A stretch of DNA of 64,000 nucleotides from Marinimicrobium agarilyticum DSM 16975 (GTDB taxonomy: Bacteria; Pseudomonadota; Gammaproteobacteria; Pseudomonadales; Cellvibrionaceae): contig NZ_KE384008.1 of assembly GCF_000423345.1 (NCBI RefSeq), positions 686,857-750,856 of the forward strand, given 5' to 3'. Positions 43,821 through 56,275 of this stretch are shown in pieces; the stretch's first letter is position 1, and each line of letters begins with the position of its first letter. Below the pieces are notes generated by a model. That model was not told where the DNA came from and searched no databases. It was given only the letters and a program-made list of their open reading frames with translations. The translations under genes and the position numbers were made by a program.

Positions 43821-43897
43821 TTGGTAGGTGGCGCTGCGCTTACCTACCCTACACGGCCAAACGTGCGTAGGGTAGGTAAGCGAAGCGCCACCTACCA
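43821..43897. repeat. GTAGGTGGCG repeat, copy E4 (paired halves)
   Basis: A forward half (TTGGTAGGTGGCGCTGCGCT, then TACCTACCCTAC) and an inverted half (CGTAGGGTAGGTAAGCGAAG, then CGCCACCTACCA), about 9 bases apart. The two halves are complementary over about 30 bases. It lies between rfaH and ugd. Confidence 0.8.
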
Positions 43898-52782: not shown

Positions 52783-52791
52783 GCGGTTTTT

Positions 52792-52871
52792 TTGGTAGGT
52801 GGCGCTGCGCTTACCTACCCTACGCGGTTGGAAAGATGTGTAGGGTAGGTAAGCGAAGCGCCACCTACCAA
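52792..52871. repeat. GTAGGTGGCG repeat, copy E6 (paired halves)
   Basis: Two complementary halves (TTGGTAGGTGGCGCTGCGCT with TACCTACCCTACG, and TGTAGGGTAGGTAAGCGAAG with CGCCACCTACCAA) flank about 17 bases. It lies between convergent lpxH and pepN and could act as a bidirectional mRNA end. Confidence 0.8.
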
Positions 52872-52893
52872 AACAGACCCTAACGCTAGCGTC

Positions 52894-55575
52894 TTAAACC
52901 AAACTCTTACTCACCACTTCATACACATCCTTCGACAATTTCGGCTCGGCTTTAATCCTTTCCAACTCCGCCTTCATGGCGTTGCCCAAATTCTCCGGGT
53001 AGCGTCTCCAACGGGTCAACGGCGTTAACAACCGCGCCGCAATCTGCGGGTTGGTGTGGTTCAGGCGCAACACCTGCTCGGCCAGAAAGCCGTACCCTTC
53101 CCCACTGGCAATGTGGAAGTTGACGGGATTGGCGTTGGTGAAGGCGCCCACCAGGGCCCGAATTTTGTTCGGGTTGTTGGGTTCGAAGGCCGCGTGTTTT
53201 TCCAGCTCCCGCACCCGCGTCAGGGTATTGGGCTGGGTACTGGTGGCCTGAACCCGCAACCACTGATCCACCACCAGCGGCTCGTCCTTCCACTGCTCGT
53301 AGAAGTCCTCAAGCGCGCGCTCGCGCACCGCATCGGCGCCCTCGGCCTCGCTGTTCACGATTTGTGTCAACGCGGCCATGGCGTCGGTCATATTGTTGGC
53401 CGCGCGGTACTGAGCGTCACAGGCTTTCAACCGCTCGGCGTCGTTCAGTTCCATCAGATAACTGAGGGCAACATTTTTCAGGCTGCGCTCGGCGATATCC
53501 TCGGCCGTCGGGCGGTAGGTTTTGCGGTGATCGTAACGTTCGTAAATCTCGCGCATTTCCTGCGTCAATGATTTCGCCAGGGCCCGCTTGACGGCGGCGC
53601 GGCTGTAGTGGATGGCCTCCACCTCGATTTTATCGGCCTGTTCACTGAGGTAGGCTTCCGAGGGCAGCGTCAGCATCAACGCGACCATGGCTTTATCGAG
53701 GGAGTCATCCTGCAGCACGCGCCGATAGGCTTCGATCAGGCGTTCATCCACCGACGCGGTGTTTACGTCCTCACCGCGGTGGTAGGCGGTCATGACATCG
53801 TCGATTACCTGCATGGCCAACTGCTGGCTGGCATCCCAGCGGCAGAAGCCGTCCGGGTCGGCGCTCATCAAGCGCATCAGGTCATCACGGCCGTAGTCGT
53901 AATACAGCTTCACGGGGGCGGAGAAGCCGCGCAGCAATGAAGGCACCGGTTTTTCCGGCAGTTGCTCAAACACAAAGGTGTGCTCGGGCTCGGTCAGTTC
54001 CAGAACGGTGTGAGTATTGTCACTGGTTTCCGGGTCCGGCGCCTGGCCTTTGAGTTTCAGCGGCAGCGCACCCGCGCTGCCCAGCAGCCCCATGGCGACG
54101 GGAATATGGAACGGTTGCTTGTTCTGGTTCTCCGGCGTGGGCGGACAGCTCTGGGCGATGGTCAGCCGGTATTCGCCGGATGCTTCGTCCCAGTGGTCCG
54201 TCACGTTGAGCCGGGGGGTGCCAGCCTGGGAGTACCAGCGTTTGAACTGGGTCAGGTCCCGACCGGAGACGTCTTCCATTGCGGCGACAAAGTCTTCGGT
54301 GGTCACCGCCTGGCCGTCGTGGCGCTCAAAGTAGAGGTCGGTGCCCTTGCGGAACAATTCCCACCCCAACAGGTTGCGCAACATGCGAACCACTTCGTGG
54401 CCTTTCTCGTAGATGGTCAGCGTGTAGAAGTTGGAGATTTCGATATAGGAGTCCGGCCGAATCGGATGCGCCATGGGGCCAGCGTCTTCGGCGAACTGCA
54501 TGGTTCTGAGCACGGACACATCTTCCACCCGCTTGACCGTGGGCGAGCCCATGTCCGCGGAAAAAGTCGCGTCGCGAAAGACGGTAAAACCTTCTTTCAG
54601 GCTCAACTGGAACCAGTCCCGACAGGTGACCCGGTTGCCGGACCAGTTGTGAAAATACTCGTGCGCCACCACGCCTTCGACCCGCTGGAAGCCGGCGTCA
54701 GTGGTGGTTTCAGGTTTGGCCAGCACACAGGCGGTATTGAAAATATTCAGGCCTTTGTTTTCCATGGCCCCCATGTTGAAGTCGTCCACGGCGACGATCA
54801 TGAAAATATCCAGATCGTATTCCCGGCCATACATTTCCTCGTCCCAACGCATGGCGTTTTTCAGGGAGGTCATGGCGTGGTCGCATTTATCCAGGTCTTT
54901 TCCTTCGACAAAAATGCGCAGCGCCACTTTCCGGCCGGATTGGGTGGTAAAGCTGTCTTCAATCTGTTCCAGATCCCCGGCCACAAGGGCGAACAGGTAC
55001 GCGGGTTTTTTGTGGGGGTCGTGCCAGGTGGCAAAGTGCCGACCGTCGTCGGTATCGCCCTGCTCGATGGGGTTGCCGTTGGAGAGCAGCACGGGGAAGC
55101 GTTTTTTGTCGGCGACGACGGTGGTAAAAAACTCGCTCATGACGTCGGGCCGGTCCAGGTACCAGGTGATCTTGCGAAAGCCTTCGGCTTCGCACTGGGT
55201 GCAGTACATGGTTTTGGACTGGTAGAGGCCATCGAGTGAGGTGTTGTTTTTGGGGTCGATGTCGCCGACGGTAACGAGTTCAAATTCGTCGGGGACGTTG
55301 AGCAGTGTGAGGGTTTCGTCGTCGAGGCGGTATTGTTTGTCGTCGAGTGTTTTGCCGTCAATGGCGACGGAGATGAGGTCGATTTCCTGGCCATTGAGTG
55401 GCAGTTCGTTTCCGCTGGCGTTAACCTCGGGGTTGCGACGCAGTTTTAAGGTGCTGGTGACGCGGGTTTTGTCGTCTTTGAGGTCGAAGTGCAGTTCGGT
55501 CCGGTCGATCAGGTATTCCGGCGGCCGATAGTCCTTCAACTGGATGGCTTTCGGCTGTGCATCACGTGCGGACAT
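52894..55575 (-). CDS. pepN: Aminopeptidase N (M1 family)
   Basis: The 893-residue zinc aminopeptidase has the substrate motif GAMENKGLN (residues 269-277) and the zinc site HEYFHNWSGNR (His305, Glu306, His309) with Glu328 in SLKEGF as the third ligand. The four-domain length matches E. coli PepN (870). It degrades cytoplasmic peptides. The ATG at 55575 matches the family; the open frame to 55695 runs into palindrome A. Confidence 0.96.
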   Translation of the reverse strand: MSARDAQPKAIQLKDYRPPEYLIDRTELHFDLKDDKTRVTSTLKLRRNPEVNASGNELPLNGQEIDLISVAIDGKTLDDKQYRLDDETLTLLNVPDEFELVTVGDIDPKNNTSLDGLYQSKTMYCTQCEAEGFRKITWYLDRPDVMSEFFTTVVADKKRFPVLLSNGNPIEQGDTDDGRHFATWHDPHKKPAYLFALVAGDLEQIEDSFTTQSGRKVALRIFVEGKDLDKCDHAMTSLKNAMRWDEEMYGREYDLDIFMIVAVDDFNMGAMENKGLNIFNTACVLAKPETTTDAGFQRVEGVVAHEYFHNWSGNRVTCRDWFQLSLKEGFTVFRDATFSADMGSPTVKRVEDVSVLRTMQFAEDAGPMAHPIRPDSYIEISNFYTLTIYEKGHEVVRMLRNLLGWELFRKGTDLYFERHDGQAVTTEDFVAAMEDVSGRDLTQFKRWYSQAGTPRLNVTDHWDEASGEYRLTIAQSCPPTPENQNKQPFHIPVAMGLLGSAGALPLKLKGQAPDPETSDNTHTVLELTEPEHTFVFEQLPEKPVPSLLRGFSAPVKLYYDYGRDDLMRLMSADPDGFCRWDASQQLAMQVIDDVMTAYHRGEDVNTASVDERLIEAYRRVLQDDSLDKAMVALMLTLPSEAYLSEQADKIEVEAIHYSRAAVKRALAKSLTQEMREIYERYDHRKTYRPTAEDIAERSLKNVALSYLMELNDAERLKACDAQYRAANNMTDAMAALTQIVNSEAEGADAVRERALEDFYEQWKDEPLVVDQWLRVQATSTQPNTLTRVRELEKHAAFEPNNPNKIRALVGAFTNANPVNFHIASGEGYGFLAEQVLRLNHTNPQIAARLLTPLTRWRRYPENLGNAMKAELERIKAEPKLSKDVYEVVSKSLV

Positions 55576-55623
55576 AATTAACTCCAACAAAGAATTGCGA
55601 ATGTGGTGGTAGACGGGAAGTCC

Positions 55624-55735
55624 GGCCGTAGGCGGGGTGTACCCTTCAGAGACCCGCCGTAAATACATCCCTGTAGGCTTCTCATCGGCATCCATGCCTC
55701 AGAGAGTCTCTGAAGGGTACACCCCGCCTACGGCC
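55624..55735. repeat. Palindromic element A (112 bases, 30-bp arms, 52-base loop)
   Basis: The left arm 55624-55653 is the exact reverse complement of 55706-55735 (30 of 30). The 52-base loop is, in reverse orientation, 46/52 identical to the loop of element B. It lies in the 380-base gap between pepN and the YeaC-like gene. Confidence 0.9.
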
Positions 55736-55806
55736 TCCGTGCCACAATTGTTGTTTAGTGGTGAATGCAAGTAACAACCACCACATGGTTCTAACGATAG
55801 TTGAGA

Positions 55807-55918
55807 GGCCTGGAGTGGTGTATACCGTTGGGAGACTCTCTGAGGCATGGATGCCGATGAGAAGCCCCCATGGATGGGTTCACGGCGGGTCTCCCAACGG
55901 TATACACCACTCCAGGCC
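55807..55918. repeat. Palindromic element B (112 bases, 30-bp arms, 52-base loop)
   Basis: Arms 55807-55836 and 55889-55918 are perfectly complementary (30 of 30), with a 52-base loop beginning TCTCTGAGGCATGGATGCCG. Its arms differ from those of element A at 10 positions, and each change is matched on the partner strand. The orientation is opposite to A. Confidence 0.9.
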
Positions 55919-55956: not shown

Positions 55957-56217
55957 CTATTTCCACCTAAGAGGTTGATCAGCTTCGGCGACCTCGCCCT
56001 CTCCGCCACAGTGAGTGTGGGGTTTGGGAGGAATGTAGCCCGTGCGCTCCTCCGGGGGCAGGTGCTGGTGCTCATAAGCAATCACCGCCTCCAGACAATG
56101 CTGACGCTGCTCGGGGGTTACCACCCGGCCGTCCGGCCACTTGCCCAGCTCCACCGCACGCTTCAGGTTCTCGTAAATCTCCGGTGTGATGCGTTCGAGC
56201 AAATCACTGTAATTCAT
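55957..56217 (-). CDS. DUF1315 family protein (YeaC-like)
   Basis: The 86-residue protein (MNYSDLLERITPEIYENLKR, then DGRVVTPEQRQHCLEAVIAYE, and LPPEERTGYIPPK) belongs to the small conserved YeaC/DUF1315 family of proteobacteria, whose function is unknown. The ATG at 56217 was chosen over an in-frame TTG six bases before. Confidence 0.85.
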   Translation of the reverse strand: MNYSDLLERITPEIYENLKRAVELGKWPDGRVVTPEQRQHCLEAVIAYEHQHLPPEERTGYIPPKPHTHCGGEGEVAEADQPLRWK

Positions 56218-56275
56218 GCACAAATCCCACAGTTACTTCAGGGTGCAGTATAACAAACCCCCGCCCCACTCTACC

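Follow-up and report, generated by a model that had tools for sequence, protein, structure and literature searches.

The window analysed here, a stretch of 64,000 nucleotides from Marinimicrobium agarilyticum DSM 16975, carries a pair of palindromes in the gap between two genes of the minus strand, a DUF1315 (yeaC-like) gene located upstream of the pair (55957..56223) and pepN, which encodes peptidase M1 domains (52894..55575). Both elements are 112 bp long and they point outward. Element A (55624..55735) has the minus strand as its sense strand and faces pepN, from whose start codon at position 55575 its end is separated by 48 nt. Its 5′ arm occupies positions 55706-55735, its core 55654-55705 and its 3′ arm 55624-55653. 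Element B (55807..55918) has the plus strand as its sense strand, with the 5′ arm at 55807-55836, the core at 55837-55888 and the 3′ arm at 55889-55918. The original prediction, which described two 112-base palindromes with perfect 30-base arms and 52-base loops, was exact: the 30-nt arms of each element are 100% complementary and enclose 52 nt. Its comparison of the two elements also agreed with the sequence, as 10 of the 30 arm positions are changed between A and B, each time with a matching change in the partner arm, and the loops are identical at 46 of 52 positions in opposite orientation. The 71-nt spacer of the divergent pair (55736..55806), which is assigned to no strand, contains the conserved 5′ flank of A, TGGCACGGA (55736-55744, minus strand), and a degenerate one of B. 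The conserved 3′ flank of A is GGACT (55619..55623, minus strand).

Folding of the four strands of A and B yielded energies of -79.3 to -82.1 kcal/mol (z -10.2 to -12.3), and none of 200 shuffled sequences folded as well. In these folds the 52 nt between the arms form a three-way junction from which two short hairpins (P2 and P3) emerge. The sense transcript of each copy is predicted to consist of a long P1 stem of about 30 bp, the junction, and the P2 and P3 hairpins with a GGA in both apical loops. Sequence and folding place the GGA of the P2 loop of element A at 55691..55693; that of the P3 loop is found at 55668..55670, within ACAGGGATGT (55665-55674), which matches the core of the CsrA SELEX consensus, all on the minus strand. 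The corresponding GGA triplets of element B, located in the same way, are at 55849..55851 (P2) and 55872..55874 (P3) on the plus strand. The loop motif is AUGGAU in both hairpins of B, and A has one AUGGAU and one AGGGAU.

A blast search with the A/B unit gave 106 matches in the own genome, with both strands counted. Thirty-six gapless copies, picked from 71 by exact length and well-formed arms, were aligned (alignment A1) and used to build the covariance model R1. This model matched elements A and B with 127.3 and 128.8 bits, respectively (G000:C1:742480-742591:- and G000:C1:742663-742774:+), and had at least 147 matches at E<=0.01 in the own genome and at least 112 and at least 129 in two congeners, where at least one place was counted on both strands. 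The identity between the 36 copies was 61% in the arms and 95% in the cores, confirming within the genome that the loop is more conserved than the arms. Watson-Crick pairing reached 98.6% between the arms of the same copy and 60.7% between arms of different copies, the stem was perfect in 25 of the 36, and there were 312 doubly changed cells as compared to 75.0 in shuffles, none of 500 shuffles reaching as high a count. The arms have then drifted with pairing retained and covary in excess of chance, as had been proposed. A core-pattern search that left the arms unconstrained found 70 type-1 cores in the sampled stretches of the own genome and 46 in those of the two congeners. In every one of them 22 or more of the 30 arm positions were paired, and in 67 and 39 of them, respectively, 27 or more. 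Since arms were complementary in all 116 cores found by core sequence alone, and since they covary, the structural interpretation withstood the search for copies of the loop that had lost their pairing.

The original prediction had left the nature of the element open between an RNA, a single-stranded-DNA mobile element and a structure-recognised integration site, and the cause of the pairing open between selection on a hairpin and templated copying of one arm from the other. The imperfect arm pairs bear on both questions. They were counted in 192 unique elements (5470 arm cells) from stretches of three congeneric genomes. These elements were found by a hairpin scan that demanded paired arms; therefore, the proportion of perfect stems (119/192) is a selected one, and the ratio of G.T to A.C pairs and the core-only arm search described above are unaffected. 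Orientation was taken from the core alone (L208 and L201 were flipped), identical elements were merged (193 to 192) and untyped rows, i.e., REP-like hairpins and others, were excluded, with the exception of the degenerate element L041. The sense strand had 59 G.T versus 3 A.C pairs (p 1.7e-14), or 52 versus 3 when distinct sequence contexts were counted once, and other mismatches accounted for 42 of the 104 imperfect cells. Fifty-three elements from other genera, selected out of 67 matches mainly by leaving out additional array copies and including the short stems of L321 (at a contig end) and L086, had 27 G.T versus 8 A.C pairs (p 0.002), three of the eight A.C being located in one over-extended stem (L073). 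G.T and A.C pairs should be equally frequent in a DNA hairpin or after arm copying, as a G.T read on one strand is an A.C on the other. The asymmetry therefore indicates that selection acts on the stem in the RNA read from the GGA strand, tolerating G.U and removing A.C. A DNA hairpin, an integration site and templated copying alone are all less compatible with it. From the alternatives initially proposed, RNA and selection on a hairpin stood, and the single-stranded-DNA mobile element and the integration site were left without support; the A/B unit had no match in plasmid and phage collections either. The ratio of G.T to A.C pairs offers an inexpensive general way to decide whether the palindromes of a repeat family act as RNA hairpins or as DNA.

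Wobble pairs are rare, representing about 1% of the arm cells (59/5470), an indication that near-perfect pairing is favoured or is restored by recombination. An RNA helix evolving by single steps would be expected to hold more G.U than this. The low number would suit mutational correction of the palindrome, in which an arm is copied from its partner during replication and both drift together without selection, and so would the core swaps and arm mosaics described below, which point to frequent recombination. However, such correction predicts as many G.T as A.C pairs, and with the ratios observed in both sets of elements we regard it as highly improbable. The asymmetry was as strong in copies facing against the flanking genes (19:0) as in those facing with them (26:2), so plain mRNA read-through is insufficient to account for it unless units flip frequently. 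Either units flip frequently, and flipped units were seen, or the copies are transcribed on their own, with no promoter signal detected. An outward promoter belonging to the element, formed by a TTGGCA flank and a TATACC in the 5′ arm, was considered and rejected: it was present in 8 of 130 spacer readings, arms included, and it would leave the arm itself untranscribed. Spacers read with their arms showed no excess of sigma-70 promoters, with scores of at least 9 in 7.7% as opposed to 7.8% of shuffled sequences; without the arms these values were 0.8% and 6.2%.

The core is also strand-specific. Folding of whole elements representing 100 distinct cores of the genus placed GGA in 164 of 224 apical loops of the sense strand, 9 of 222 of the antisense strand and 30 of 181 of core-shuffled sequences. 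In the 53 elements from other genera, GGA was found in 88 of 101 sense and 0 of 105 antisense apical loops. Although P2 and P3 vary between genera, they stay paired: 51 elements had 888 doubly changed cells versus 247.8 in shuffles, a count that covers the whole structure including P2 and P3 in an alignment fitted to the model. Further pair types in these 51 elements showed no excess over shuffles (411/500), and covariation supports the junction and the closing stem. The distance between the GGA motifs was exactly 20 nt in 145 of 169 plain cores in which both were recognised, with a range of 18-22 nt. On the sense strand, the CsrA SELEX core ACARGGAUGU was present in 49 of the 192 congeneric elements and in 13 of 44 from other genera; the antisense strand had it in neither set. 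P3 has few pairs and a UUYAC bulge, and some P2 stems are long. Larger cores contain additional hairpins. Two types of insert add GGA hairpins to the sense strand. A third type, inserted within the P3 loop, interrupts that loop and has GGA hairpins that read on the strand opposite to the host element; it was found in L060 (1813-1974), L063 (1393-1601), L156 (1723-1870) and L174 (1830-1979), and it is present in L156 and absent from the orthologue L183.

A binding site for CsrA consists of a GGA in an apical loop. In the accessible portion of a SELEX study, the consensus for CsrA is RUACARGGAUGU, a CsrA dimer bridges two sites that are separated by 10 to 63 nt and does so best above 18 nt, and very stable stems are disfavoured (PMC7652899). 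The elements have GGA in hairpin loops and two such sites at a spacing appropriate for dimer bridging as given in that portion of the study. We consider it probable that they are dispersed bivalent CsrA/RsmA-binding RNAs acting as decoys or local regulators, and for this we infer that they are transcribed and bound. One CsrA/RsmA homodimer would bridge the P2 and P3 loops, making each transcribed copy a bivalent site. The copies could jointly act as decoys that buffer free CsrA and may also regulate locally the mRNAs containing them. Read-through from either side would meet one sense copy, and the unit would function in either orientation because the pair is symmetric. The strand asymmetry, the covariation, the GGA loops about 20 nt apart, the SELEX cores, the tandem arrays described below and a single csrA gene are all consistent with CsrA binding. 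This gene, at G000:C4:54204-54359, is canonical, and its product is close to solved CsrA structures. The gene was also found in 56 of 58 relatives, with or without the elements, and among genomes of the class it was not found in 3 of 37 with elements (one of them, G252, is 98% complete) versus 2 of 19 without. Being near-universal, csrA says little by co-occurring with the elements, and this co-occurrence was discarded as support. Several observations argue against CsrA binding. Besides the three element-bearing genomes with no csrA found, these are the equally strong asymmetry in copies facing against genes, the P3-loop insert with GGA hairpins on the opposite strand, and the length of some P2 stems in view of the stems disfavoured in the available SELEX text (PMC7652899). 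The recurrent A.G mismatch, with 20 occurrences of which 15 are at one arm position and most in one arm family, is not accounted for by CsrA binding.

Comparison with known RNA classes pointed to TwoAYGGAY (RF01731, clan CL00106), with which the elements share a long outer stem and a pair of hairpins that end in NGGAN loops. The RF01731 alignment spans both CAUGGAUG hairpins and the unpaired AAG and CGG, and many P2 stems have a GA/GA step similar to the tandem GAs reported for that class in the text available (PMC4333381). On the other hand, the loops in this family are often AGGGAU instead of AYGGAY, P3 has the UUYAC bulge, and the hundred-fold copy number and divergent pairs distinguish this family from it. 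The window elements scored 37.7 and 36.2 bits against RF01731, below its gathering cut-off of 43, and the best copy in the own genome reached 42.9 bits. The cut-off was passed by 1 of 20 element loci, G001:C1:3746353-3746480 with 47.2 bits, which coincides with an R1 match and had been chosen for its match; the other 19 failed. Based on these scores and the shared architecture, we call the family a putative relative of TwoAYGGAY, a largely unrecognised branch rather than a curated member. Genome G006 (e.g., L293) has nine RF01731 matches, several of them above the cut-off, and no R1 match; it represents a different, shorter TwoAYGGAY type within the same family. In 2010, as far as the accessible text goes, TwoAYGGAY was considered "probably" an RNA and "probably not" a cis-regulator or riboswitch (PMC2864571), and in 2014 CsrA binding was proposed for it from motif matches alone, again as given in the accessible text (PMC4333381). 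That proposal lends weight to CsrA binding here, and a high-copy relative with strand-resolved selection, fixed spacing and SELEX-type sites makes the CsrA hypothesis directly testable at the bench. Like CsrB/RsmZ-type sRNAs, the elements present GGA in the apical loops of more than one hairpin (for CsrB, in the available part of PMC7652899). Unlike them, they have a long hypervariable stem and are two-hairpin elements dispersed over more than 100 loci instead of one sRNA gene. RsmZ was not detected over the cut-off in 36 relatives, and none was found in the own genome. Matches to Rfam microRNAs (mir-629 with 45.5 bits, and others) were below cut-off and were rejected as an artefact of the long stem, since the alignments shown pair the arms and not the core.

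Adjacent copies in the genus are divergent in 65 of 67 pairs. Core types within pairs were mixed in 35 of 67, about the expectation for random mixing, and a preference for heterotypic pairing was rejected. Among neighbours less than 500 bp apart in other genera, nine were divergent, two convergent and eight on the same strand, the last in three tandem arrays. Same-strand arrays in G032 (L091 1501-2625) and G507 (G507:C1:94414-95209) have six copies with a period of about 200 bp and four copies with a period of about 228 bp, respectively, and they look like multi-site sponge RNA genes. The yeaC-pepN locus has a divergent pair in all three congeners with differing core types, and the whole unit is inverted in G001 relative to G002. 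A second inverted unit was found by comparing L165 and L191, which align over their full length only when one of them is reverse complemented. The type-1 elements of L171 and L190 have identical arms and different cores, i.e., a core swap, and near-identical arms occur at different loci. Chimeric arms were observed in L044 (5548-5659), where the 5′ arm resembles those of L052 and L060 and the 3′ arm that of L061 (1552-1657), as if copies had recombined within the core.

REPINs are high-copy intergenic palindromes in inverted pairs. The same trait, which also defines BIMEs in the portion of PMC2817692 available, is present in this family, and the elements could be a REP/BIME- or REPIN-like DNA repeat whose hairpins depend on a transposase or a recombination enzyme for their spread or maintenance, with function as RNA only secondary. 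High copy number, divergent pairing, inversion of whole units at two loci and near-identical arms across loci are all in line with such a repeat. So is an intergenic location, with 0 of 110 units inside an open reading frame as judged by a crude ORF caller and a scan that merged some pairs. Conserved feet, TGGCACTGA before the stem and GGAC after it (e.g., 55736-55744), were found in the genus, and TGGCAC was also found near element ends in other genera. Moreover, the unit is present in the three congeners, and the yeaC-pepN gap contained no such hairpin, in either orientation, at any of 26 loci of other genera where it could be read; one further stretch had no pepN, and many of these gaps are long enough for another gene. 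However, the excess of G.T over A.C pairs is unexpected for a DNA hairpin and reveals RNA selection on one strand, the unit has no match in the plasmid and phage collections, its positions recur between congeners, and it is the stem that is hypervariable and the inner core that is conserved, unlike in REP/BIME and REPIN. A DNA repeat of this kind is therefore unlikely.

The median distance from a unit to the flanking genes is 43.5 nt on the side of a stop codon and 102 nt on the side of a start. Avoidance of the gaps between divergent genes was rejected: 14 of the 114 gaps with elements lay between divergent genes, compared with 16 of the 81 gaps lacking them (p 0.16, with a crude ORF caller and 36 elements unplaced). 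Proximity to stop codons would agree with RNA hairpins selected for some other role, as the target of another GGA-binding protein, an RNase III site or a stabiliser of mRNA 3′ ends, and a stem of 30 bp resembles a substrate of RNase III. To stabilise an mRNA, a stem requires no conserved 52-nt core and no twin GGA loops at a fixed spacing, and SELEX-type CsrA sites are frequent; we give these other roles a small but real share of probability. GC-rich, near-perfect stems near gene ends are also reminiscent of intrinsic transcription terminators. This possibility was rejected as practically negligible because no more than 2 of the 192 elements are followed by TTTT in the next 15 nt.

The family is spread among the sampled Gammaproteobacteria. 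Among 58 relatives, a set in which the own genome is counted, 30 (belonging to 26 of 53 genera) had R1 matches, as did 38 of 274 sampled genomes of the class (34 of 222 genera). At the phylum level such matches were found in 13 of 299 sampled genomes, all of them the own genome or members of its family, order or class, the share of the 299 that lies outside the class being unstated. Folding of the best or listed loci placed GGA in apical loops on one strand only in 24 of 27, 14 of 15 and 15 of 15 cases in three sets, and in L077, L083, L087 and L313 the predicted minimum fold had no GGA apical loop. A strict core motif had no match in viral contigs, and a looser one was found in one of them, L346 (6233-6255; IMG/VR, 53,994 bases).

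CsrA binding at this copy number leads to a more tentative proposal, which is possible though we do not favour it: CsrA may be buffered in a distributed manner by at least 100 bivalent traps arranged as orientation-independent divergent pairs, beside or instead of a CsrB/RsmZ-type sRNA. The units would flip, swap cores and gain hairpins by recombination, while selection on the RNA would keep the stems paired. If this is correct, the level of free CsrA would report genome-wide transcription through the units. Should the CsrA hypothesis itself hold, much of the CsrA-binding capacity of these bacteria would reside in repeats ignored by annotation, and BIME-like repeats would include a class that functions as RNA. 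The open-licence literature available, which offers partial coverage, yielded no report of dispersed CsrA-binding repeats.

A second dispersed, REP-like palindrome (GTAGGGTAGGTAAGCG..CGCCACCTACC) was observed in the window at 43822-43897 and 52790-52873. It is also present in L046 (1661-1755), L053 (1712-1826) and L055 (1646-1730), and GTAG-type palindromes akin to it were found in both congeners.
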